From assembly GCA_003598085.1 (NCBI GenBank), contig QZKU01000097.1, positions 1 to 11,945 of the forward strand: 11,945 nt of DNA, written 5' to 3'. Origin of the DNA: Candidatus Abyssobacteria bacterium SURF_5. GTDB taxonomy: Bacteria > Abyssobacteria > SURF-5. This document shows, in pieces, positions 1 through 11,945 of this stretch. The notes under the pieces are model-generated. The model did no database searches. It saw only the letters and a list, made by a program, of their open reading frames with translations, and was not told where the DNA came from. The position numbers and the translations under genes are program-made. The stretch's first letter is position 1, and every line of letters begins with the position of its first letter.

Positions 1-1
1 G

Positions 2-85
2 GACTACTGGTCGAGCGGAAGCACGACCTATATCGTCCTTGCCGGCTTTACACCCGGATCGGGCGAAACGCCTCCGGAAGAGTGA
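2..85 (+). CDS. C-terminal end of an unidentified protein (partial, 5' end outside window)
   Basis: One frame is open from the window edge to a TGA at 83-85 and encodes the last 27 residues of a protein. The tail is rich in Ser, Thr, Gly and Pro and ends in two glutamates (GSGETPPEE). No domain or family can be recognised from so short a piece. A hairpin overlaps its stop codon and a 161-nt gap separates it from sat, so it probably belongs to a different transcription unit. The reading frame is chosen because it ends just before the hairpin. The other frames on this strand are less plausible but cannot be excluded. Confidence 0.35.
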   Translation, partial: DYWSSGSTTYIVLAGFTPGSGETPPEE

Positions 86-110
86 GAACCCTCTTCCCAA
101 AGGGTTTCTC
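84..110 (+). terminator. possible weak terminator hairpin after the upstream gene
   Basis: An imperfect inverted repeat starts in the stop codon of the upstream partial gene. GAGAA (84-88) pairs with TTCTC (106-110), and CCCT (89-92) pairs with AGGG (101-104), leaving one bulged T at 105 and an 8-nt loop. No T tract follows, so this is not a classical rho-independent terminator. It may be an attenuating structure or chance. A second small inverted repeat, GGCCC/GGGCC, lies at 119-138. Confidence 0.3.
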
Positions 111-246: not shown

Positions 247-1476
247 ATGTCAAAATTAGTGAAGCCGCATGGGGCAGCCGAATTGAAGCCGCTTTTGCTT
301 TCGGGCAAGAAACTGGAAGAGGCGAAGAAGAAGGCTCAGTCGCTGCCGAAAATCGTCATGACCAGCCGCGAAACATCGGACCTGATCATGATGGGTATTG
401 GTGCGTTCACTCCGCTTGAAGGATTCATGACAAAGGCGGACTGGAAGGGCGTGTGCGCCGAATACATCATGGCGAACGGTGTGTTTTGGCCGATCCCGAT
501 TACACTCTCCGCGAGCAAGGAAGTGGCCGGGTCTTTGAAGGAAGGTTCGGAGGCGGCCTTAGTCGATGGCGAAACCAACGAGTTGATGGGCAGCATCAAG
601 ATCACGGAAAAGTACACGATCGACAAGGAGTACGAGTGCAAACAGGTGTTCCGCACAAACGACAAGGAGCACCCGGGCGTCGCGAAAGTGATGCAGCAGG
701 CCGAAACCAATCTTGCCGGTCCGGTGCACGTATTCAGCGAAAGCTATTATCCCAAAGAGTTCAAAGACGTCTATATGAGGCCGGCCGAAAGCCGGAAGAT
801 CTTTGAGCAAAAGGGATGGAATACCGTTGCCGCATTGCAGCTGCGCAACCCGATGCACCGCTCGCATGAGTACTTGGCGAAAATCGCCGTCGAAGTTTGC
901 GACGGGCTATTCATTCATCAACTTGTCGGCAAGCTGAAGGCGGGCGACATTCCAGCCGACGTGCGCGTGAAATGCATTGATGTACTCGTTGAAAACTACT
1001 TTGTCAAGGACACGGTGGTTCAGGGCGGCTATCCGATGGAGATGCGCTATGGCGGCCCGCGCGAGGCGTTGCTTCATGCCGTGTTCCGGCAGAACTACGG
1101 ATGCAGTCATTTGATCGTCGGCCGCGACCATGCCGGTGTCGGCGACTACTACGGCCCGTTCGACGCACAGAAGATATTCAACGAGATTCCCAAGGACGCC
1201 CTCGAGCTCAAACCGCTTAACATCGACTGGACATTCTATTGCCATAAGTGCCGCGGCATGGCCTCCATGAGGACCTGCCCGCACGGCAAAGAGGATCGTC
1301 TCCTGCTCAGCGGAACAATGCTTCGCAAAATGCTTTCTGAGGGAGGCGAAGTTCCTGCCGATTTCAGCCGGCCCGAAGTCCTCACCGTCTTGAAGGAATA
1401 CTACGCAGGTTTGACGGAAAAGGTTGAAATCAAGTTGCATGGAGCCGCCACCGGCGAAGCTGCCAAAAAGAAATAG
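247..1476 (+). CDS. sat: ATP sulfurylase (sulfate adenylyltransferase), dissimilatory type
   Basis: This enzyme makes APS and pyrophosphate from sulfate and ATP in the cytoplasm, the activation step of sulfate respiration. The 409-residue product has the usual length of prokaryotic homo-oligomeric Sat with no APS-kinase domain. The nucleotide-binding signature [13 protein letters not shown] lies at about residues 198-210, with H204 and H207 in the HxxH position. The second signature GRDHAG is at 292-297. A C332-x2-C335 ... C344-x-H346 cluster is a probable zinc site, as seen in bacterial and archaeal dissimilatory Sat. The ATG at 247 follows a purine-rich stretch (GGGGGG at 232-237) and matches the family N-terminus. 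aprB starts 133 nt downstream with no clear terminator between, so sat and aprBA are probably co-transcribed. Confidence 0.97.
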
Positions 1477-1609: not shown

Positions 1610-2053
1610 ATGCCAAGCTATGTGAACCCGGAAAAATGCGACGGCTGCAAGGCATTGGACAAGACCGCGTGCCAGTACATCTGCCCGAACGACCTCATGG
1701 TGCTCAATAAGGACCTCATGAAGGCATACAATCGGGAACCCGAAATGTGCTGGGAATGCTACAACTGCGTGAAAATCTGCCCGACGCAAGCCGTCGAAGT
1801 CAGAGGGTACGCAGATTTCGTTCCCATGGGCGCAAACGTCACCCCAATGCGAAGCACTGAAGACATCATGTGGACCGTGAAGTTCCGGAGCGGCCAAATC
1901 AAACGCTTTAAATTCCCCATCCGCACCACACCGGAAGGCTCTGCCGTTCCGGATGGCGGCTGGAAAACGGGTACAGACGACCTGAGCAGCCCCATCCTGT
2001 TCACGGAACCGGCTTCGGGCGGCATGTCGGATTTGGCGAAGCTCAACAAATAA
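1610..2053 (+). CDS. aprB: adenylylsulfate (APS) reductase beta subunit, iron-sulfur protein
   Basis: AprB passes electrons from the Qmo complex to the FAD of AprA. The 147-residue product has two [4Fe-4S] cluster motifs. The first is C10-x2-C13-x7-C21-x3-C25, with the unusual longer spacing typical of AprB. The second is C47-x2-C50-x2-C53-x3-C57. W48, next to the second motif, matches the conserved tryptophan known to help electron transfer in Archaeoglobus AprB. From about residue 70 a cysteine-free tail of roughly 75 residues (ending SGGMSDLAKLNK) corresponds to the arm that wraps around AprA in known structures. The gene is 18 nt upstream of aprA, and the pair forms the heterodimer. Start and length are typical. 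Confidence 0.97.
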   Translation: MPSYVNPEKCDGCKALDKTACQYICPNDLMVLNKDLMKAYNREPEMCWECYNCVKICPTQAVEVRGYADFVPMGANVTPMRSTEDIMWTVKFRSGQIKRFKFPIRTTPEGSAVPDGGWKTGTDDLSSPILFTEPASGGMSDLAKLNK

Positions 2054-2071: not shown

Positions 2072-3946
2072 GTGGCTGATTTTCAAAATGTAGAAATTAC
2101 TACCGATCTCTTGATATGCGGCGGCGGAATGGCGGCGTGCGGCGCTGCTGTTGAAGCTGCATATTGGGCAAAGAAAAGTGGCGTGAAAGTGACGCTGGTT
2201 GACAAGGCGGCGATGGACCGCAGCGGCGCTGTGGCCATGGGGCTTTCGGCCATCAACCAGTACGTGGGCCTGAAAGACGGCGAAAACACGCTGGAAGACT
2301 ACATCAAGTACGTTCGCAACGACCTCATGGGGATCACGCGCGAGGACTTGGTCGCCAGCATCGCCCGGCACGTGGATTCCACCGTGCATCTGTTCGAAAA
2401 GTGGGGGCTCCCCATTTGGAAAGATGCTGAAGGCAAGTACGTCCATGAAGGCCGCTGGCAGCTCATGATCAACGGCGAATCCTACAAAGTGCTCGTCGCA
2501 GAGGCTGCGAAAAATGCGCTCGGCATGGATAACATCTATGAGCGCGTGTTCATCGTCGAACCGTTGTTGGACGGTGATCGGATCGCCGGTGCTGTCGGTT
2601 TCAGCGTCCGCGAAAACAAATTCTATGTCTTCAAAGCAAAGGCCGTTCTGGCTGCCATGGGCGGCGCAGTGCACGTCTTCAAACCTCGCTCAGCGGGTGA
2701 AGGTCTGGGGCGCGCCTGGTATCCGCCGTGGAATTCGGGCTCCAGTCTGTATTTCACCGCTCGCGCCGGCGCTGAGCAGACCTGTCAGGAAGTGCGCTTC
2801 ATCCCGGTGCGCTTCAAGGACGGGTACGGTCCGGTCGGCGCCTGGTTCCTCCTGTTCAAATCCAGGGCCACCAACGCCATGGGCGGCGACTATATGGTCG
2901 AACGGAAACCGGAACTGCAGAATTGGCTGCCGTACGGCAACGTGAAGCCGGTCCCGGCGAATCTGAGAAATTATCTCGGTATGCTCGATATCATGGAAGG
3001 CAAAGGCCCCATCTACATGCGCACTGAAGAAGCCATTCAGAAGCTGGCCGAAGCCGAGCCTGATGAGAAGAAGAGAAAGAAGAAGCTGAAGGAACTTGAG
3101 AGCGAAGCGTGGGAAGACTTCCTCGACATGACCATTTCACAGGCCGTCCTATGGGCCGGCACAAATGTCCAGCCCGAAGAGAAGCCGTCGGAAATCGCGG
3201 CGTCCGAACCTTATTTCATCGGTTCGCATTCCGGCGCGTCCGGTGCGTGGGTCAGCGGCATGAAGGACCTCGCTCCGCCGGAGTACTTCTGGGGCTATGG
3301 CCACATGTCGACCGTGAAAGGGCTGTTCTGCGCGGGTGACGCATCCGGCGCCTCCAGCCACAAGTTCTCCTCCGGTTCCTGCACCGAAGGCCGAATTGCG
3401 GCGAAAGAAGCCATCCGCTTCATCGTCGAGAACAACACTCAGCCCAAAGTGGATGCGGCAGCGGTTGCCGCTCTGAAGGAAAGACTCCTGAAGCCGCTCG
3501 AAATCTTCCAGCAGTTCAAGGGAGCCTCGAGCGATCCCAATATCAATCCGAACTACATGAAGCCGAAGATGTTCATGTTCAGGCTTCAGAAGGTCATGGA
3601 CGAGTACGCTGGCGGTGTCACCGCGCAGTTCACTACCAACAAGAAGTCGTTGGAGCGGGCGCTTGAATTAATCGGTTACCTCAAAGAGGATTCCGATAAA
3701 CTCGCGGCCGAAGACCTGCACGAGTTGATGCGCTGCTGGGAAAACGTCCAGAGGCTGTGGCAGGCCGAAGTGCACGTCCGCAGCATGCTCTTCCGTGAAG
3801 AGACTCGCTGGCCCGGATACTACTTCCGGTCCGATTTCCCGAAGATGGACGAGCAAAACTGGAAGGTTTTCGTCAACGCGAAATGCGACCCGAAGACCGG
3901 CCAGTGGGAAATGGCAAAAAGACCCGTCATTTCCATCATCAGCTAG
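2072..3946 (+). CDS. aprA: adenylylsulfate (APS) reductase alpha subunit, FAD protein
   Basis: AprA is the catalytic flavoprotein that reduces APS to sulfite and AMP, using two electrons from AprB. The 624-residue product belongs to the fumarate reductase/succinate dehydrogenase flavoprotein superfamily and has normal length. The N-terminal Rossmann segment CGGGMAACGAAVEAA (about residues 16-30) binds FAD. The conserved block EVRFIPVRFKDGYGP contains R242 and R247, in the region of the arginine that contacts APS in known structures. GSHSG (384-388, with H386) corresponds to the active-site histidine region. The AGDASGASSHKFSSGS block (about 422-437) is the conserved flavoprotein C-terminal signature. 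A lysine/glutamate-rich helix (about 328-352) is a lineage-variable insertion. It starts with GTG behind a strong Shine-Dalgarno site and is followed at once by a strong terminator. Confidence 0.97.
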   Translation: MADFQNVEITTDLLICGGGMAACGAAVEAAYWAKKSGVKVTLVDKAAMDRSGAVAMGLSAINQYVGLKDGENTLEDYIKYVRNDLMGITREDLVASIARHVDSTVHLFEKWGLPIWKDAEGKYVHEGRWQLMINGESYKVLVAEAAKNALGMDNIYERVFIVEPLLDGDRIAGAVGFSVRENKFYVFKAKAVLAAMGGAVHVFKPRSAGEGLGRAWYPPWNSGSSLYFTARAGAEQTCQEVRFIPVRFKDGYGPVGAWFLLFKSRATNAMGGDYMVERKPELQNWLPYGNVKPVPANLRNYLGMLDIMEGKGPIYMRTEEAIQKLAEAEPDEKKRKKKLKELESEAWEDFLDMTISQAVLWAGTNVQPEEKPSEIAASEPYFIGSHSGASGAWVSGMKDLAPPEYFWGYGHMSTVKGLFCAGDASGASSHKFSSGSCTEGRIAAKEAIRFIVENNTQPKVDAAAVAALKERLLKPLEIFQQFKGASSDPNINPNYMKPKMFMFRLQKVMDEYAGGVTAQFTTNKKSLERALELIGYLKEDSDKLAAEDLHELMRCWENVQRLWQAEVHVRSMLFREETRWPGYYFRSDFPKMDEQNWKVFVNAKCDPKTGQWEMAKRPVISIIS

Positions 3947-3955
3947 AAAAACAAC

Positions 3956-3993
3956 TTCCTCCGGGCGCCCAGTGCGCCCGGAGGAACCTTTTT
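3956..3993 (+). terminator. strong rho-independent terminator after aprA
   Basis: TTCCTCCGGGCGC (3956-3968) and GCGCCCGGAGGAA (3974-3986) form a perfect 13-bp, GC-rich stem with a 5-nt loop (CCAGT). After CC comes a run of five T (3989-3993). It begins 10 nt after the aprA stop codon. It marks the end of a sat-aprBA unit and should strongly reduce read-through into the qmo block. Confidence 0.93.
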
Positions 3994-4064
3994 ACAGAAG
4001 TGCTTTTCGGCGGAGATTCTGCTCACCGCCGGTTGAACAAATGCAGGTAAGCATGGTGGTTCAA

Positions 4065-4367
4065 ATGAAAATTACCGAAACTCCATCCTGTCCACATTGC
4101 GGGTCTCAGATGAAGAGATGGCAGGTGCCGGACGCAGGCACGTGGGACGCGGAGTTTCACTATGTATGTTTCAATGACGACTGCCCCTACTTTGTCAGGG
4201 GGTGGAACTGGATGCAAGAGCGGTATAATGCTCGTGCCTCATATCGTCATTGCATCGATCCAACAACCGGCTGTTGCCGTCCGCTTCCCGTGTGGTCGGA
4301 ATCGGCCCTCAAGGATCGAATCGTTTTCGACAACCGAATCAATAGAGAAGTTCAGAAGTTTCCATGA
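4065..4367 (+). CDS. small zinc-ribbon protein of the apr-qmo locus
   Basis: The function is unknown. The 100-residue product has an N-terminal zinc-ribbon-like arrangement, C9-x2-C12 (CPHCGSQMK) and C35-x4-C40 (CFNDDCPYF), resembling the Ogr/Delta-like and related short zinc fingers. An aromatic stretch (FVRGWNWMQERYN, about 43-55) follows, then a tail with three more cysteines (C63, C70, C71). I recall similar small proteins near apr/qmo genes in sulfate reducers but could not check this. ATG codons at 4041, 4053 and 4065 are all in frame. I chose 4065 because the conserved-looking part begins there and GGTGG (4056-4060) precedes it; 4053, after AGGTAA, is a fair alternative. Its stop overlaps the ykgJ start (ATGA at 4364-4367), implying coupled translation. 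It could be a regulator or a metal/cofactor assembly factor. Confidence 0.75.
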   Translation: MKITETPSCPHCGSQMKRWQVPDAGTWDAEFHYVCFNDDCPYFVRGWNWMQERYNARASYRHCIDPTTGCCRPLPVWSESALKDRIVFDNRINREVQKFP

Positions 4368-5182
4368 AAGATTTTGAAGATATCAAAGAAGCCATTCTGA
4401 CTGATGCGCCTCGATTCAAAGAAACCGACAGGTTCAAATTCTCTTGCCACAGAGGAGTATCCTGCTTTACCGACTGCTGCGCCGACGTAAATATTTTCCT
4501 CACTCCCTACGACATCCTGCGGATGAAGAAGCGCCTCGGAATATCATCTGACGAATTCCTCTCGCGTTACACGCTGATTCCTTTCAATGAAAAACAGCAG
4601 GTGCCCGTGGTCGTGCTGAAAATGCTGGAAAATGAGAAGAAGCAATGCCCTTTCCTCTCGCCCGGCGGTTGTACGATCTACGAAGACCGGCCGTGGGCGT
4701 GCCGCATGTATCCGCTCGGCCTGGCGTCGCCGAAGGACAACGGCAATGGAGAAGAACAATTTTATTTTCTCATGCAGGAGGGGAATTGCTGCGGATTCAA
4801 AGAAGAAAAGGAATGGTCCGTCCGCCAATGGCTCGAGGACCAGGGTATTATCGAATATAACAAGATGGGAGAGTCTTTCAAGGCAATCGCGCTGCACGAG
4901 TACTTGCAACAAGGAAATCACCTCGATCCGGACAAGATGGAAATGTACCACATGGCGTGTTACAACCTGGACAAGTTCAGGCGGTTTGTCTTTGAAAGTC
5001 GTTTCCTGTCCTATTTTGATATAGATGCAGAACTTGCGGAGTCACTGCGAAACGATGATCTGCAACTAATGCAATTCGGTTTCCGCTGGCTCAGGTTTGC
5101 GCTGTTTAATGAACCCTCAATCAAGATCCGTGATGAAGTGCTCGCCATCCGGAAAATACAGTTGGGAAAACAAGCACAGTGA
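4364..5182 (+). CDS. YkgJ-family cysteine-cluster protein (CxxCxxCC-like metal-binding domain)
   Basis: The 272-residue product matches the YkgJ/UPF0153 pattern of putative zinc- or iron-chelating proteins. An N-terminal cluster C28-x5-C34-x3-C38-C39 is followed by C95, C103 and C113 in the hallmark setting CPFLSPGGCTIYEDRPWACRMYP, which I cite only by position (95-117). A further C142-C143 pair follows. Nine or so cysteines in the first 145 residues suggest a metal or Fe-S site. The C-terminal half (about 150-272) is charged and mostly helical-looking, without a recognised domain. No signal peptide or membrane segment is seen, so it is cytoplasmic. It overlaps the zinc-ribbon gene by 4 nt and ends 11 nt before qmoA, so it belongs to the qmo operon. 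A role in Apr or Qmo cofactor assembly is only an inference. Confidence 0.85.
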   Translation: MKDFEDIKEAILTDAPRFKETDRFKFSCHRGVSCFTDCCADVNIFLTPYDILRMKKRLGISSDEFLSRYTLIPFNEKQQVPVVVLKMLENEKKQCPFLSPGGCTIYEDRPWACRMYPLGLASPKDNGNGEEQFYFLMQEGNCCGFKEEKEWSVRQWLEDQGIIEYNKMGESFKAIALHEYLQQGNHLDPDKMEMYHMACYNLDKFRRFVFESRFLSYFDIDAELAESLRNDDLQLMQFGFRWLRFALFNEPSIKIRDEVLAIRKIQLGKQAQ

Positions 5183-5184
5183 AT

Positions 5185-5188
5185 GGAG
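5185..5188 (+). promoter_or_regulatory. Shine-Dalgarno site that decides the qmoA start
   Basis: GGAG lies 5 nt before the ATG at 5194. A GTG at 5179, in the same frame, overlaps the ykgJ stop (GTGA) but has only a poor site before it. Starting at 5194 also puts the FAD motif at the usual distance from the N-terminus. Confidence 0.7.
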
Positions 5189-5193
5189 ACGCT

Positions 5194-6450
5194 ATGAGTA
5201 CTAACGGCAAGATTCTCGTAATCGGCGGCGGCATCAGCGGCATTTCCGCGGCTGCCGACGCTGCTGAATTCGGCTACGATGTGGTGCTCGTCGAAAAAGA
5301 ACCCTGCCTCGGCGGCCGCGTCATACGAATGAATCAGTATTTCCCAAAACTGTGTCCGCCTTCTTGCGGCATGGAAATCAATGTGCGTAGAATCCGCCAG
5401 AACCCGAAGATCAAGGTCTACACCATGGCCGAGATCGAGAAGGTTTCCGGAGGTCCCGGAGATTATTCCGTCAGCATCCGCATTAGGCCGCGCTACGTGA
5501 CGGGGAAACAGCCGGTCGGCCAGGCCCATCTCGATGCCGTTACCACGGAAGTCCCAAACGATTTTAATTACGGCATGAACTCGACCAAGGCGCTGCATCT
5601 CCCGCATGAGACGGCGTTCCCGATGCTGCACGTGCTCGAGAGGAGCAAACTCGGCGCGGAAGAAGTCGAGAAGCTCATGGCCGCTTCGCCCGCCGGCGCG
5701 ATTGATCTCGACATGAAGGAAGAGGTCGTCGAAGAAAAGGTGGGCGCCATCATTATTGCCGCTGGTTGGCGCCCCTACGATGTCGCCAAACTGGATAACC
5801 TGGGCGCCGGCAAATACCCGAACGTAATCACCAACGTGATGATGGAAAGACTGGCATCCCACACCGGCCCGACCGGCGGGAAAATCACCCGCCCGTCCGA
5901 CGGGAAAGAGCCTGCCACCGTCGCCTTCGTCCAGTGCGCGGGCTCGCGCGACGAAAACCATCTGCCTTACTGCTCGGCGCTCTGCTGCATGGGCTCATTA
6001 AAGCAGGCCCGCTACGTACGGGAAAACCTGCCCGAAGCGAAGATTACCATTTTCTATATCGATATTCGCACGATCGGGCGGTTTGAAAAGTTCTACTACG
6101 ATCTGCTGGACGATCCCAATATCTCTTTCATCAAGGGGAAGGTGGCGAAGATAACCGAAGATGCGGCCACCGGAAATCCGATTGTTGAGGCCGAAGAAGT
6201 GATGCCGGGGGAAAAGCTGCGCGAGCAGTTCGACATGGTTGTCCTTGCAACGGGTGTCGTTCCGTCGACCGCCGACCTGAACATTCCAGGCCTCAAGCTT
6301 GAGAAAGATAGTGACGGTTTTGTCATAGACAGTCCGAATGGAAGCGGTATATTCGCCGCTGGATGTGCGAAAAGGCCCCTGGATGTATCCAGGTCTGTAA
6401 AAGACGCTACTGCGGCCGTGATGAAGGCTATCCAACTAATCAGGAGGTAA
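5194..6450 (+). CDS. qmoA: quinone-interacting membrane-bound oxidoreductase subunit A, HdrA-like flavoprotein
   Basis: QmoA is a soluble FAD subunit of the QmoABC complex, which links the menaquinone pool to APS reductase. The 418-residue product is HdrA-like. It has the FAD Rossmann motif GGGISG at 11-16, the block CLGGR (38-42), C54/C58 in CPPSCGMEIN, and the HdrA-type block with C248 (QCAGSRD) and C260, C264, C265 (YCSALCC). The C-terminal end GIFAAGCAKRPLDVSRSVKDA is the conserved FAD-domain close, named here in part. Unlike full HdrA it has no ferredoxin-type [4Fe-4S] motif pair, as expected for QmoA (known length about 410). It ends with tandem stops TAA TAG, and the qmoB Shine-Dalgarno site lies in its last codons. 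An alternative start at GTG 5179 would add five residues. Confidence 0.95.
   Translation: MSTNGKILVIGGGISGISAAADAAEFGYDVVLVEKEPCLGGRVIRMNQYFPKLCPPSCGMEINVRRIRQNPKIKVYTMAEIEKVSGGPGDYSVSIRIRPRYVTGKQPVGQAHLDAVTTEVPNDFNYGMNSTKALHLPHETAFPMLHVLERSKLGAEEVEKLMAASPAGAIDLDMKEEVVEEKVGAIIIAAGWRPYDVAKLDNLGAGKYPNVITNVMMERLASHTGPTGGKITRPSDGKEPATVAFVQCAGSRDENHLPYCSALCCMGSLKQARYVRENLPEAKITIFYIDIRTIGRFEKFYYDLLDDPNISFIKGKVAKITEDAATGNPIVEAEEVMPGEKLREQFDMVVLATGVVPSTADLNIPGLKLEKDSDGFVIDSPNGSGIFAAGCAKRPLDVSRSVKDATAAVMKAIQLIRR
6442..6447 (+). promoter_or_regulatory. Shine-Dalgarno site for the GTG start of qmoB
   Basis: AGGAGG sits in the final coding bases of qmoA, 10 nt before the GTG at 6458. It supports the GTG start and tight coupling of qmoA and qmoB translation. 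Confidence 0.75.
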
Positions 6451-6457
6451 TAGTCCC

Positions 6458-8707
6458 GTGGCAAGCAAAATCGGAGTATATATCTGCACAGGGTACGGGA
6501 TAGGCGAGGCCCTGAACGTCGACGAATTGTGCGAAGTAGCTACGGACGAATACAAGGTCGACGTGTGCAAGACGGTTCCTTCCTGCGAAGGCGAAGACCT
6601 TGAGGGTATCAAAAAAGATATTGCCGAGCAGGGGCTTGAAAAAGTGGTGTTGGCAGGGCCGTCTCCACGGTTCTATTCGCCGAAGACATTCCCGGAGAAT
6701 CTTATCGTCGAGTACGTCAACCTCAGAGAGCAGGTCGTATGGTGCCAGCCCCCGAGTGACGAAGACACTCAGATGATGGCCGCCGATTACCTGCGAATGG
6801 GGATCGTGAAAGTGCAAAAGACCAACCCGGTCGAGCCGTTCCCCGAAAGCAAGGATATCAATAAAACAATTTTGGTTGTCGGTGGGGGCATCGCCGGAAT
6901 GACCGCGGCGCTCGAAAGCGCGGCCGCCGGATATGATGTCGTCCTGGTTGAGAAAAGCCCTCAGCTCGGCGGGTGGATGGCCAAGCTGAAGAAATCGACT
7001 CCCCGCACGGCCCCCTACGACAGCATCGAGGATACCGGCATAGAAGAAAAGATAAAGCAGGTACAGCAAAACGAGCGAATCAAAGTTTTCACCAGCGCCC
7101 AGATCGAATCGATCAACGGGGGCCCAGGCGTGTTCGATGTCAAGCTCAAGGGCGACGGCGACACCTTCCGCGTTGGAGCAATTGTTCAGGCTACCGGATG
7201 GAAGCCTTACCGGCCGGCCAACCTTGGCCACTTAGGTTTCGGTTCGCTACCGAACGTCATTACGAACGTCGAAATGGAAGAGATGGCGAAGAGCGGCAGC
7301 ATCGCCCGCCGGTCCGACGGAAAGAAAGCCAAAAATGTCGTGTTCATCCAATGCGCGGGGTCGAGGGACAAGAATGAGCTCTCCTACTGCTCGTCAATCT
7401 GCTGCCTCAATTCGCTGAAGCAGGCGGCATATGTCCGCGAGCAGGACCCCGATGCGAAAGCATACATCGTTTACGAAAACATGAGGACGCCGGGCCAATA
7501 CGAGTATTTCTACAAGAAAATGCAGCAGGATCCCGGCGTCTTTTTGACGAAGGGCAGCGTTGCAGGCGTCAAACCGAACGGCGATGGCTCGATGGAGGTC
7601 GAGATCAAGAACAGCCTGCTCGGGGAGGATATCCTTGTCGACGCCGATCTCGTCGTCCTTGCAACCGGGATGCTGCCGAATGCGGCCGACGGCGAAAAGA
7701 TCCGTGCCGTCAAGGACGCCCGATCTTTTCTCGCCTCCGACCAAGGAGGCCCGCAGGTCGAAGAGATGAAGAAGAAGATCGCCATGTGGGAGAGCCATGA
7801 GGGCACCGAAATCTTGAACCTTAACTACCGTCAGGGACCGGATCTTCCGACCTTGCAGTATAACTATCCCGACTCCCACTTCATCTGCTTCCCCTATGAA
7901 ACGCGGCGGACGGGCATCTATGCCGCCGGCGCGGTTCGCGCCCCGATGGACGGTCTCGGGAGTGTGGAGGATGCCACCGGCGCCGCCTTTAAAGCGATTC
8001 AGTGTGTCGAAATGCTTTCGCGCGGCGAGACTGTGCTTCCGCGTGCAGGCGACCGCTCGTATCCGGAATTCTTCCTTCAGAGATGCACCCAATGCAAGCG
8101 GTGTACCGAAGAATGTCCGTTCGGCACTCTGAACGAGGATGTCAAAGGAACTCCGCTGCCCAATCCTACACGGTGCAGGCGGTGCGGCATCTGCCTGGGC
8201 GCGTGTCCGGAACGCATCATCAGTTTCAAAAACTATTCCGTTGACCAGGTTGCTTCGATGATCAAGGCGATCAATGTGCCCGACGAGTTCGAGGAGAAAC
8301 CGAGGGTCTTGGTGCTTGCCTGCGAGAACGATGCGTATCCCGCGTTCGATATAGCGGGACAAAAGGGACTGAAATACAGCTCGTTTGTGCGGATCATTCC
8401 GGTGAGATGCCTCGGCTCGGTCAATGTGATCTGGATCAATGAGGCCTTCGCCAAAGGGTTTGACGGCGTGATGTTGTTTGGCTGCAAGTACGGCGACGAT
8501 TACCAATGCCATTTTATACGCGGCAGCGAATTGATGAATACGCGCGGAGAGAACGTCAGGGAGAAACTGAAGACGATGGCGCTTGAAAATGAGCGCGTCG
8601 AGCTGCACCAAGTTCAGATATCCGATTGGCACAAACTGCCCGGCCTCGTGAACGACTTCATGGAGGTCATCGAATCGGTAGGAATGAACCCGTTCAAGGG
8701 TATGTAG
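6458..8707 (+). CDS. qmoB: quinone-interacting membrane-bound oxidoreductase subunit B, HdrA-MvhD fusion
   Basis: QmoB is the second soluble flavoprotein of the Qmo complex and is thought to be the likely contact to AprBA. The 749-residue product reads as a fusion. Residues 1-135 are an HdrA-type N-terminal domain. The FAD domain starts with GGGIAG at 142-147 and includes the block with C299 (QCAGSRD), C311, C315 and C316. Two [4Fe-4S] motifs follow: C543-x2-C546-x2-C549-x3-C553 and C573-x2-C576-x2-C579-x3-C583. The end (about 615-745) is an MvhD-like domain with C622, C651, C676 and C684 as probable [2Fe-2S] ligands. This is the standard QmoB architecture and length. It starts with GTG 7 nt after the qmoA stop and lies 16 nt before qmoC. 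Confidence 0.95.
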   Translation: MASKIGVYICTGYGIGEALNVDELCEVATDEYKVDVCKTVPSCEGEDLEGIKKDIAEQGLEKVVLAGPSPRFYSPKTFPENLIVEYVNLREQVVWCQPPSDEDTQMMAADYLRMGIVKVQKTNPVEPFPESKDINKTILVVGGGIAGMTAALESAAAGYDVVLVEKSPQLGGWMAKLKKSTPRTAPYDSIEDTGIEEKIKQVQQNERIKVFTSAQIESINGGPGVFDVKLKGDGDTFRVGAIVQATGWKPYRPANLGHLGFGSLPNVITNVEMEEMAKSGSIARRSDGKKAKNVVFIQCAGSRDKNELSYCSSICCLNSLKQAAYVREQDPDAKAYIVYENMRTPGQYEYFYKKMQQDPGVFLTKGSVAGVKPNGDGSMEVEIKNSLLGEDILVDADLVVLATGMLPNAADGEKIRAVKDARSFLASDQGGPQVEEMKKKIAMWESHEGTEILNLNYRQGPDLPTLQYNYPDSHFICFPYETRRTGIYAAGAVRAPMDGLGSVEDATGAAFKAIQCVEMLSRGETVLPRAGDRSYPEFFLQRCTQCKRCTEECPFGTLNEDVKGTPLPNPTRCRRCGICLGACPERIISFKNYSVDQVASMIKAINVPDEFEEKPRVLVLACENDAYPAFDIAGQKGLKYSSFVRIIPVRCLGSVNVIWINEAFAKGFDGVMLFGCKYGDDYQCHFIRGSELMNTRGENVREKLKTMALENERVELHQVQISDWHKLPGLVNDFMEVIESVGMNPFKGM

Positions 8708-8723
8708 AGGAGGTTCTGTTCTC

Positions 8724-9983
8724 ATGACGACGGAACTCATGGCCGAAACCGCTGAGAAGGAGCAGGCCACACCCCAAAAGGCAGGAAAGCAGATCGTGAA
8801 GATCGAGCCGGACCTCGATTTCATCAGAGAGATATCGGCGGCGGGCGGGGGTACCCTGAAGAAATGCTTCCAGTGCGCCACCTGCTCCGTGGTGTGTTCT
8901 CTTACTCCCGAATCGCACCCGTTCCCGCGGAAGGAGATGATCTGGGCGTCGTGGGGGCTGAAAGACAGGCTCATCAACGACCCCGACATCTGGCTCTGTC
9001 ACCAGTGCGGAGATTGCTCCGTCAGTTGTCCCAGGGGTGCACGGCCGGGCGACGCGCTCGCGGCCGTGCGCAACTACATCTTTAAGACGTTCACGTTCCC
9101 AAGATTTATCGGGACCTGGCTGGGAGAGCCCAAATACCTGCCGCTGGTCTTCGGCATTCCATTTGTGTGGCTCCTCGTCATGCTGGCAATAGCCGGAACA
9201 CTTGGCTCCATTCCCGCGGGTGAAATCGAGTTCTCCAAATTTTTGCCGCATCCGCACCTGTACGTCGTGTTCATCACCTCCACGCATCTTGCTGCGCTCG
9301 CGCTGGTTTTCAGCCTGGCGAGATTCTGGAAGATGCTCGGAACCGCCGAGGTCAACAGGAGTGGCGCGAATCCGGGCGGGCCCACTCAGGGTAACCTGAT
9401 CGCCAGCGCCCAGGCCACGCTCAAGGAAGTTCTCACGCAGGCAAAGTTCAAGAAATGCGAGGAGAATAAGGAGCGCCACGTCGGCCATCTCTTGATCATG
9501 TATGGCTTCATAGCGATTGCGGTGGGAACCGGCATCGCCTTTTTCATGATGTACGGCCTCAAGATTCATCCGCCGTTCGCGCAGTGGACTCCTCCGAAAA
9601 TACTTGGCCACTTGGGGGTAGTTGCGCTGATCGCCGGGCTGGTGATCGTTATCCGGGGCAGACTCGAACAAAAAGAGAATGTCAGCAAGGCCAGTTATCA
9701 GGACTGGTTCCTGCTGGTTGTGCTGCTGGCGGTTGCAGTGACCGGGCTGGCTGTTGAAATCATCCGGTTTGCCGGAATCGCATGGGCCGCATATTGGGGA
9801 TACATCGTTCACCTGGTGTTTGTGTTCGCACTGATCGGGTACTTCCCGTACTCGAAGTTCGCCCACATGTTCTTCCGGTTTACGGCAATTCTTCACTCGA
9901 AATATACCGGCAGGGATATCGTTCTCGAACAAAGCAAAGGAACTGAAGCAAGAGCGGTCCAAATGGAAAAAGCCGCCGCCTGA
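8724..9983 (+). CDS. qmoC: quinone-interacting membrane-bound oxidoreductase subunit C, HdrC-cytochrome b fusion
   Basis: QmoC is the membrane subunit that oxidises menaquinol and feeds electrons to QmoAB. The 419-residue product has an HdrC-like N-terminal part with two [4Fe-4S] motifs: C48-x2-C51-x2-C54-x3-C58 and C92-x2-C95-x2-C98-x3-C102. The rest is a NarI/HdrE-like cytochrome b domain with about six membrane segments, near residues 139-161, 179-202, 254-278, 293-310, 328-347 and 357-375. Candidate heme b ligands are among H188, H255, H296, H363 and H381. AGGAGG (8708-8713) lies 10 nt before the ATG. A QmoC of this form is typical of Desulfobacterota-like sulfate reducers. Known Gram-positive sulfate reducers use HdrBC in its place. 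Confidence 0.95.
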   Translation: MTTELMAETAEKEQATPQKAGKQIVKIEPDLDFIREISAAGGGTLKKCFQCATCSVVCSLTPESHPFPRKEMIWASWGLKDRLINDPDIWLCHQCGDCSVSCPRGARPGDALAAVRNYIFKTFTFPRFIGTWLGEPKYLPLVFGIPFVWLLVMLAIAGTLGSIPAGEIEFSKFLPHPHLYVVFITSTHLAALALVFSLARFWKMLGTAEVNRSGANPGGPTQGNLIASAQATLKEVLTQAKFKKCEENKERHVGHLLIMYGFIAIAVGTGIAFFMMYGLKIHPPFAQWTPPKILGHLGVVALIAGLVIVIRGRLEQKENVSKASYQDWFLLVVLLAVAVTGLAVEIIRFAGIAWAAYWGYIVHLVFVFALIGYFPYSKFAHMFFRFTAILHSKYTGRDIVLEQSKGTEARAVQMEKAAA

Positions 9984-10007
9984 TGTTTCTGTTGGAGACG
10001 AATTGAA

Positions 10008-11702
10008 ATGAAGGAAGCGCGCAAAATAGTGATCATCGGCGGGGTGGCATGCGGCCCAAAGGCCGCCGCCCGCGCTCGGCGGCGCGACCCGCACGCCGAG
10101 ATAACCGTCATTGAACGCGGTTCGCTTCTCTCCTACGCAGGTTGCGGGATACCATATTACATCGGCGGCGCGATCCCTGAATACGACGGCCTGCGGAAAA
10201 CACAGTACGGCGTCGTGAGAGACGAGCAATTCTTCGACTCGGTCAAAGGGATCCGAGTTCGCACACGCACTCTGGCTGAGGCGATAGACCGCAAAAACAA
10301 AACCGTTCAGATACGGAACCTGCAAACAGAGTCGATTGAACAGCTCCACTATGACAAGCTGGTTCTCGCAACAGGCGCGTCTCCCGCTCGGCCGCCGATC
10401 GAAGGCCTGGCGCTTGACCGCGTTTTCTTCGTGCACTACCCCCAGGACGCTTTGCGAATGCGCGAACTGATAGAAGGCGGCGAGGTCGATAAGGCCGTCC
10501 TCATCGGAGCGGGACGTATTTCCCTCGAAATCGCCGAGTCCTTGTTTGCGCATGCCGTCGATGCCGTCATCGTCGAATTGGAAGATTGTATCCTTCCAAC
10601 CATGTTGGATCCCGAAATCGCCGCCACCGTCGCCGGAGCGTTGCGTGACGAAGGAGTGCAGGTTCTGGTCGGCGAAAAAGTCGTACGCATCCTTGCCAAT
10701 CAAGACGGACAGGCATGCGGAGTAGTCACCGGGACACGGGAAATTCCGGCAGATATGGTGGTTGTGGCGACTGGAGTAAAACCAAATGTGCAATTGGCCG
10801 CCGCCGCCGGGCTGAAAATCGGCAGTACCGGCGCCATATCGGTAAACGAATACCTGCAAACGAACGATCCGGATATCTATGCCGGCGGAGATTGTGTTGA
10901 ATGCGACAGTTTGGTTACCGGTAAAAAGCTCTATGCTCCCCTCGGCTCGACGGCCAATCGTCATGGCCGCGTCATCGGCGATAACATCACGGGCGGGAAA
11001 TCGGTGTTTCCCGGCGTGGTTGGCACGTCCGTAATGAAAGCCATGGGTGTGAACATCTCCTCCTCCGGGATAACCGAGCGCCAGGCTCGGGCAATGGGAT
11101 ATTCGCTTCTTACATCGGTGGTTCCCTGGATGGATCGAGCCCACTATTTTCCCGGCGGAAAAGCGCTCCTCATAAAACTTGTTGCCGATGCACAAAGCGG
11201 GAGACTGCTGGGTGGACAGATAGTCGGGCCGGGTGATGTTACAAAACGAGTCGATGTAATCGCCACCGCCCTGAGCAGCCGCGCCAAAATCGAGGAGGTC
11301 GCCAATCTCGACCTCGGGTATGCGCCGCCGTATTCGACCGCGCTCGACAGCATTGCCCACGCCGCGAACGTGCTCCTGAACAAGAGAGATGGTTTGGCGA
11401 AAACCATTTCGGCCGCTGAGTTGCGCGCGCGGATCGAGCGAGATGAGGATTTTGTGCTCCTGGACGTGCGCGAAATGAATGAAGTGGAAAAGTCAAGATT
11501 TGAAAACCCCCGCGTGTGTTCGCTCCCCTTGAGTCGATTGCGTGCGGCAAAAGACGATATACCGAGCAATAAAGAGTTGATATGCTTTTGCCAACTCGGC
11601 ATGAGAAGCTACGAAGCGTGCCGCACTCTCGCGGGTATGGGATTTGATGATGTGAAATTCCTGGAAGGCGGGCTCCGGTTCTGGTTGGAGGGAGGTGACT
11701 AG
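10008..11702 (+). CDS. CoA-disulfide reductase-like flavoprotein fused to a C-terminal rhodanese domain (putative NADH-dependent persulfide reductase)
   Basis: The 564-residue product has the order of the CoADR-Rhd/Npsr family: an FAD/NAD(P)H disulfide oxidoreductase (about 1-450) plus a rhodanese domain (about 465-564). Family members reduce CoA-persulfide, polysulfide or CoA-disulfide with NAD(P)H in the cytoplasm. The single active-site cysteine is C46 in SYAGCGIPYYIGG. The rhodanese active loop is C528-QLGMRS. C526 sits two residues before it and D486-VRE is the usual rhodanese DVR motif. Two details differ from the common consensus: the FAD motif reads GGVACG (11-16), with C15 for Gly, and the second Rossmann motif reads GAGRIS (167-172), with Ser for the last Gly. 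GGAG at 9994-9997 precedes the ATG by 10 nt. The 24-nt gap after qmoC suggests co-transcription with qmo. A polysulfide or persulfide role in sulfate respiration is inferred, and NADH oxidase activity is an alternative. Confidence 0.88.
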   Translation: MKEARKIVIIGGVACGPKAAARARRRDPHAEITVIERGSLLSYAGCGIPYYIGGAIPEYDGLRKTQYGVVRDEQFFDSVKGIRVRTRTLAEAIDRKNKTVQIRNLQTESIEQLHYDKLVLATGASPARPPIEGLALDRVFFVHYPQDALRMRELIEGGEVDKAVLIGAGRISLEIAESLFAHAVDAVIVELEDCILPTMLDPEIAATVAGALRDEGVQVLVGEKVVRILANQDGQACGVVTGTREIPADMVVVATGVKPNVQLAAAAGLKIGSTGAISVNEYLQTNDPDIYAGGDCVECDSLVTGKKLYAPLGSTANRHGRVIGDNITGGKSVFPGVVGTSVMKAMGVNISSSGITERQARAMGYSLLTSVVPWMDRAHYFPGGKALLIKLVADAQSGRLLGGQIVGPGDVTKRVDVIATALSSRAKIEEVANLDLGYAPPYSTALDSIAHAANVLLNKRDGLAKTISAAELRARIERDEDFVLLDVREMNEVEKSRFENPRVCSLPLSRLRAAKDDIPSNKELICFCQLGMRSYEACRTLAGMGFDDVKFLEGGLRFWLEGGD

Positions 11703-11761: not shown

Positions 11762-11791
11762 TTGACTCGAATCCGCTGGCAATGATAGAAT
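11762..11791 (+). promoter_or_regulatory. sigma70-type promoter with extended -10 upstream of dsrA
   Basis: TTGACT (11762-11767) and TAGAAT (11786-11791) are separated by 18 nt. TG at 11783-11784 stands one base before the -10 hexamer, forming an extended -10. A transcript would start near 11797-11799 and give a leader of about 67 nt before dsrA. The leader holds a run of nine A (11813-11821). The site lies in the 163-nt gap after the flavoprotein-rhodanese gene, where no clear terminator is seen. Confidence 0.65.
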
Positions 11792-11854
11792 GACGCCATG
11801 CGTTAATGGTTGAAAAAAAAAGGGTTATCCTATCGTTCTTAGAGACGCAAAGAC

Positions 11855-11859
11855 AGGAG
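11855..11859 (+). promoter_or_regulatory. Shine-Dalgarno site of dsrA
   Basis: AGGAG ends 6 nt before the ATG at 11866, and a second AGG follows at 11861-11863. It supports this start for the partial gene. Confidence 0.75.
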
Positions 11860-11865
11860 AAGGAT

Positions 11866-11945
11866 ATGAGTGAAAATGGGACGCCGTTGTTGGACGAGCT
11901 GGAGAAGGGTCCATGGCCGAGCTTTGTGAAGGAGATCAAGCGAGC
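11866..11945 (+). CDS. dsrA: dissimilatory sulfite reductase alpha subunit, N-terminus (partial, 3' end outside window)
   Basis: Only 26 codons and two bases are present. After an ATG at 11866 the peptide contains [17 protein letters not shown] (about residues 9-25), which closely resembles the start of bacterial DsrA (for example the LDQLESGPWPSFV region of Desulfovibrio DsrA, from memory). DsrA pairs with DsrB to form the siroheme enzyme that reduces sulfite in the cytoplasm with DsrC. None of the siroheme or Fe-S cluster motifs is inside the window, so the call rests on this N-terminal match and on the sat-apr-qmo context. The gene has its own promoter and a good Shine-Dalgarno site. dsrB would be expected next. 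Confidence 0.85.

Follow-up and report, generated by a model that had tools for sequence, protein, structure and literature searches.

In this study, we found that the gene lying between qmoC and dsrA in SURF_5, a metagenome-assembled genome of 'Ca. Abyssubacteria', encodes a protein which, judged from its sequence, is better named an NADH-dependent persulfide reductase (Npsr) of the type of AfNpsr from Archaeoglobus fulgidus than a CoA-disulfide reductase (CoADR), and that members of the same clade recur inside the sulfate-respiration clusters of several other phyla. It is fairly probable that this gene, npsr, encodes an NADH-dependent persulfide/polysulfide reductase which returns sulfane sulfur to sulfide in a sulfate reducer. 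The Npsr family itself is already known; the open-access literature searched contained no report of its recurrent presence in sulfate-respiration clusters, nor of npsr or a CoADR gene placed with dsr. The window, i.e. the whole stretch of DNA analysed (11,945 nucleotides), is one whole contig (C97) of SURF_5 (genome code G000), and its features are listed in Table 1.

Table 1. Coordinates of the features in the window and the basis of each assignment
Feature	Position	Strand	Basis or remark
End of collapsed dsrA...dsrD repeat	1..99	+	Identical to first 99 bp of SURF_5 contig C48
dsrD 3' end (DYWSSGSTTYIVLAGFTPGSGETPPEE, then stop)	2..85	+	Translation; frame agrees with PF08679 matches of G001
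sat, sulfate adenylyltransferase	247..1476	+	NF003166, 528 bits
aprB	1610..2053	+	TIGR02060, 207 bits
aprA	2072..3946	+	TIGR02061, 919 bits
Zinc-ribbon ORF	3795-4367		Between aprA and qmoA; called start overlaps aprA, true start probably later
YkgJ-like CxxCxxCC protein	4364..5182	+	PF03692; homologues in L082, L108, L154
qmoA	5179..6450	+	HdrA/QmoA-like; synteny in SURF_17
qmoB	6458..8707	+	FlpD domain, HdrA-like
qmoC	8724..9983	+	NF038018, 449 bits (cut-off 300)
npsr, Npsr-type NADH-dependent persulfide reductase with C-terminal rhodanese domain	10008..11702	+	Pfam, alignment, tree
Putative sigma-70-like promoter before dsrA (TTGACT-18-TAGAAT)	11762..11791	+	Conserved in SURF_17 (L119 about 11848) and G001 (C112)
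Start of collapsed dsrA...dsrD repeat	11847..11945	+	Identical to last 99 bp of SURF_5 contig C54
dsrA 5' end, 26 codons, runs off contig	11866..11945	+	TIGR02064

The original prediction of a fusion gene at 10008-11702, placed between qmoC and dsrA, was borne out by the ORF check and the Pfam scan. The ORF is intact, starts with ATG, encodes 564 aa with zero internal stops, and lies 24 nt 3' of qmoC and 163 nt 5' of dsrA. npsr is no chance ORF; a long antisense ORF of 888 aa (8694-11360) that overlaps it only mirrors the conserved frame of npsr on the other strand. Between SURF_5 and SURF_17, another genome of the same group, the proteins share 74.3% aa identity with a pN of 0.168 versus a pS of 0.735, values similar to those of qmoC, and npsr is under purifying selection between the two genomes. 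The Pfam scan of the window protein gave Pyr_redox_2 at residues 6-297 (E 3e-59), Pyr_redox_dim at residues 348-446, and a rhodanese domain at residues 468-560 (E 7.5e-10), i.e. the Npsr architecture of a CoADR-type FAD/NAD core followed by a C-terminal rhodanese domain of ~100 aa. In some Desulfovibrio, the position after qmoC is occupied by QmoD, from which the window gene, a flavin disulfide-reductase fusion, is set apart by its architecture.

The best solved relative of the window protein is AfNpsr (6PFZ), with E 1.9e-166 over residues 7-559 and 48.7% identity across 548 residues. The two proteins share the domain order, and alignment to AfNpsr places the active Cys46 (Cys42 of AfNpsr), Glu190, Tyr380, Tyr438, and the rhodanese Cys528 in the window protein, which thus has one active-site Cys in an S-Y-x-x-C-G-x-P-Y-Y motif, the catalytic Tyr residues, and the rhodanese Cys with its CxxGxR loop. 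Glu190 aligns with Glu183, the NADH-selecting residue of AfNpsr, although this residue alone is no proof of NADH specificity. Furthermore, the loop KTQYGVVRD (about residues 63-73) pairs with ETTYGAVRD of AfNpsr, within which the CoA-closing loop TTYGAVR (TQYGVVR in the window protein) was described as unseen in Shewanella and Bacillus homologues, and as limiting access and favouring small substrates (PMC7969121). When 40 homologues were placed in a tree, those with the loop, including AfNpsr and the window protein, were separated from the loop-less Shewanella/Bacillus type by a split with support of 100/98. SlNpsr (3NTA) and the Bacillus CoADR-RHD (3ICR) resemble the window protein in combining an FAD reductase with a rhodanese domain that has a CQxGxR loop, and are 36-38% identical to it, but they have no CoA-closing loop and fall on the other side of this split.

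The window protein also shares its fold and active-site motif with CoA-disulfide reductases, but it has a rhodanese domain and the loop in addition, and its scores are below both NCBI CoA-disulfide reductase equivalog cut-offs (400 vs 578.8 bits for TIGR03385, and 381 vs 458 for NF007123). AfNpsr reduces persulfides and polysulfide with NADH, and its CoA-disulfide activity was not detectable (PMC7969121). The earlier description of the protein as a CoA-disulfide reductase/rhodanese fusion therefore holds for its domains and fails for its name, which is ruled out by the curated cut-offs together with the AfNpsr biochemistry. Considering the identity to AfNpsr, the CoA-pocket loop, the presence of all catalytic residues, and the sub-cut-off CoADR scores, the name Npsr is preferred. 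The accompanying suggestion of NADH-dependent persulfide or polysulfide reduction gained support, since the closest solved relative has been measured to do so (PMC7969121), and the fold and residues of the window protein predict the same activity.

By analogy with AfNpsr, from which the proposed chemistry is taken, sulfane sulfur (persulfide, polysulfide, or zero-valent sulfur) would be loaded onto the rhodanese Cys528, passed to the thiol of bound CoA and then to Cys46, and reduced via FAD by NADH to give H2S and NAD+. For the cellular substrate we infer sulfur that would come from incomplete sulfite reduction, which would tie the enzyme to that step, or from sulfide re-oxidation. Leaked sulfane sulfur would thereby be restored to the end product sulfide, the cell would be protected from zero-valent sulfur, and NADH may gain an outlet during sulfate respiration, in a pathway usually drawn as quinol-driven. 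In air, AfNpsr also oxidises NADH with O2, with a kcat slightly higher than half of that for CoA-persulfide (PMC7969121). This activity, like the NoxA-3 annotation, would suit an NADH oxidase accompanying the oxygen-sensitive sulfate-respiration genes as an oxygen or redox-stress enzyme. However, the window protein keeps the rhodanese Cys and CxxGxR loop, which an oxidase would not need, AfNpsr without air is a sulfur reductase only (PMC7969121), and the linkage is to sulfur genes; a stress role is thus quite improbable.

The survey of qmo and dsr neighbourhoods that had been called for with the original prediction turned out positive. SURF_17, the only close match in the contig scan of genomes, has a gene order identical to that of SURF_5 at the npsr locus, and in several other phyla such a gene has been placed independently within a sat-apr-qmo-dsr cluster. 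Window-clade npsr genes were found in such clusters in three phyla beyond Abyssubacteria, represented by G041 (qmoABC, a PEP-synthase-like gene, dsrM, dsrK, npsr, dsrD, dsrA, dsrB, dsrN, dsrC, and a second dsrM, dsrK, and dsrJ), by G386 (sat, aprBA, two conserved ORFs, qmoABC, npsr), and by G022 and its sister G393 (npsr, sat, aprB, continuing to qmoABC in G022). These linked proteins and the window protein form one clade, with support of 99/98 for five rows and an SH-aLRT of 93 for seven rows in a second tree. A member of the clade in G258 lies at a contig end with its neighbour beyond view, and a different, loop-less Npsr of the SlNpsr/CoADR-RHD type is found directly 3' of qmoC in the same genome; the two G258 genes are at C62:12291-13907 and C64:306-1973. 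This loop-less copy is one of the more distant Npsr genes, of which G208 has another at the end of a dsrN-C-M-K-J-...-P run, only 6 nt behind dsrP, and G225 a further one in its qmo-sat cluster, at ~13 kb from the preceding qmoC. Cys15 in the FAD loop (GGVACGPKAA) was considered as a signature of the dsr-linked clade, as it seemed unique in the first tree, yet it is common in unlinked homologues.

The frequency of this linkage was evaluated in a 386-genome sample picked without regard to linkage, in which we considered the best 30 qmoC genomes outside the family of the window. Fourteen of these 30 encode a CoADR/Npsr protein (matches with an E of at most 1e-60), and in five of the 14 (G041, G022, G258, G225, and G208) the gene is inside the sulfur cluster. 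With random placement at 1-3% per genome, the probability of at least 5 of 14 is 2e-7 to 4e-5, a rough figure, for which the per-genome chance is an assumed value and relatedness is ignored. In the third Abyssubacteria genome (G001), qmoC leads straight to dsrA with npsr absent at the junction, and no npsr orthologue was found in this genome, the best match being a 44% paralogue elsewhere. Thus, the pathway can do without npsr, and the enzyme is not obligatory at this locus. A search of ~9 kb on either side, contigs permitting, found no sat, aprAB, dsrAB, or qmoC near two SURF_5 Npsr paralogues at other loci, or near 20 close homologues, taken regardless of dsr content, from the phylum of G025, which is probably Desulfobacterota. 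A universal linkage of npsr to sulfate genes is ruled out by G001 and by the 20 unlinked homologues; the link between npsr and sulfate respiration is real but optional, a repeated feature of certain lineages and not of the whole Npsr family.

The absence of npsr at the G001 junction and the unlinked close homologues would also fit a mobile or chance neighbour that plays no role in sulfate respiration, and in G041 palindromes ACAGGTTnnnAACCTGT match on both sides of npsr (L081 8566 and 10305), as if it had been inserted. Such hitch-hiking is nevertheless highly improbable in view of placements in at least four phyla that involve no single Npsr subfamily alone (for random placement, P is below 1e-4), and of the purifying selection on npsr. 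The entry of npsr into the sulfate-respiration cluster in at least four phyla suggests that its product works with sulfate respiration. The role of Npsr in organisms which respire sulfate but not sulfur is a stated puzzle for Archaeoglobus, and the authors of the AfNpsr study describe its presence there as anomalous, without connecting it to genes of sulfate reduction (PMC7969121). Like the host of the window gene, Archaeoglobus is a sulfate reducer; it differs in being archaeal, whereas the window copy sits inside a sat-apr-qmo-dsr cluster. A clade whose genes occupy, in different phyla, the dsrK-dsrD interval, the site behind qmoC, or that ahead of sat ties the enzyme to sulfate respiration and makes the question testable. 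Alternatively, Npsr may serve another sulfur mode of the same cells, i.e. S0/polysulfide respiration or sulfur disproportionation via the same cluster, considering that the Shewanella Npsr has been proposed to act in sulfur respiration (cited in PMC7969121) and that SURF_5 has the two further paralogues. This is rather unlikely, since the linked clade accompanies the sat-apr-qmo-dsrD genes of the reductive direction, and the paralogues elsewhere could handle sulfur respiration instead.

In SURF_5, dsrA and dsrD are visible only as ends protruding from a collapsed repeat. The 26 DsrA residues of the window align to the DsrA model (TIGR02064, E 2.5e-6) over its first 18 positions. When a de Bruijn assembler collapses a repeat, it characteristically leaves contig ends that overlap by a constant length; like the two ends of the window, the corresponding contig ends of SURF_17 overlap by 99 bp (C87/C125), and those of G001 by 141 bp at either side (C12/C112, C112/C2). 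The repeat extends from a point 10-21 nt 5' of dsrA to the end of dsrD or slightly beyond. Since such overlaps occur in each of the three Abyssubacteria genomes, every genome would have two dsrA(B)D copies that are nearly identical; in G001, the last codons of dsrD are not the same in both copies. The original prediction did not take into account that the window opens inside dsrD and has the same dsrA...dsrD repeat on both flanks. The arrangement that explains these ends most simply is C54-[dsrA(B)D]-sat...npsr-[dsrA(B)D]-dsrN-dsrC-dsrMKJOP, where dsrN, dsrC, dsrM, dsrK, dsrJ, dsrO, and dsrP follow the second dsrD end on SURF_5 contig C48 (L151 125-8757), and the encoded DsrC has two C-terminal Cys residues. 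dsrB was not seen, and its place would presumably be in the dsrA(B)D block.

In the original paper on these genomes, dsrAB and dsrD were not identified, and reduction was concluded to stop at sulfite (PMC6121073). The reported absence of these genes from SURF_5 and SURF_17 is explained by their loss with the collapsed repeat. SURF_5 and SURF_17 carry at least dsrA and dsrD; since these are present at contig ends, the published conclusion that reduction ends with sulfite no longer holds. From another lake, bins of Abyssubacteria have been credited with the full pathway and with npsr, with no gene order given (PMC7887784). With dsrB presumed to be present, the sulfate-reduction pathway of SURF_5 looks complete.

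The original prediction also offered a link of NADH to the sulfur chain, which would have to run through DsrC or quinone. DsrL is an NAD(P)H:acceptor oxidoreductase of the Dsr pathway, with an architecture unlike that of the window protein. The two proteins possibly do the same job, in that both would tie NAD(P)H to Dsr chemistry, but the window protein shows no Fe-S (Fer4-type) domain of the DsrL kind in the Pfam scan. If Npsr were a reductive counterpart of DsrL, its rhodanese/CoA arm would re-reduce the DsrC persulfide or trisulfide with NADH, replacing quinol and DsrMKJOP. The genes adjoining npsr in G041 (dsrDAB), its position behind dsrP in G208, and the two-Cys dsrC and dsrMKJOP on the contig after the repeat in SURF_5 are all consistent with such an NADH entry into the Dsr pathway. 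However, besides the missing iron-sulfur domain, the AfNpsr loop restricts access and prefers small substrates (PMC7969121), and DsrMKJOP is present and would do the same job, so that we regard this route as unlikely. A somewhat broader proposal, also to be taken as doubtful albeit worth stating, is that the dsr-linked Npsr clade is a dedicated, so far unrecognised component of sulfate reduction in several uncultured phyla, which, acting like a DsrL in the reductive direction, would feed NADH directly either into the DsrC persulfide or trisulfide or into sulfane sulfur that DsrAB releases.

As for expression, the 24-nt gap between qmoC and npsr has no clear terminator, and npsr is probably the last gene of the qmo transcription unit. 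Co-transcription of qmoC and npsr as a general rule was dropped, since in G386 the two genes are separated by ~0.28 kb with a terminator-like hairpin followed by a T-run. A TTGACT-N17/18-TAnnAT sequence just 5' of dsrA is common to SURF_5, SURF_17, and G001, and this promoter-like site suggests a separate transcription start for dsrA. The site is specific to the qmoC(-npsr)-dsrA junction and absent before the other dsrA copy, the upstream flanks of which are genus-specific.

Several further features of these clusters were observed. The G041 cluster contains two dsrMK sets (L081 10337-12692 and 3-2859), and the DsrK adjoining npsr in this genome scores 344 bits against a DsrK cut-off of 400. 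A PEP-synthase-like protein of ~850 aa, the C-terminal part of which has no assignment, is encoded near qmo in three lineages (L081 12744-15284, L082 2363-4921, and L110 11622-14210). The zinc-ribbon ORF and the YkgJ-like protein of the aprA-qmoA interval both recur in G258 and G386, and the YkgJ-like protein, additionally found in G022 and G225, is kept between aprA and qmoA in other phyla.
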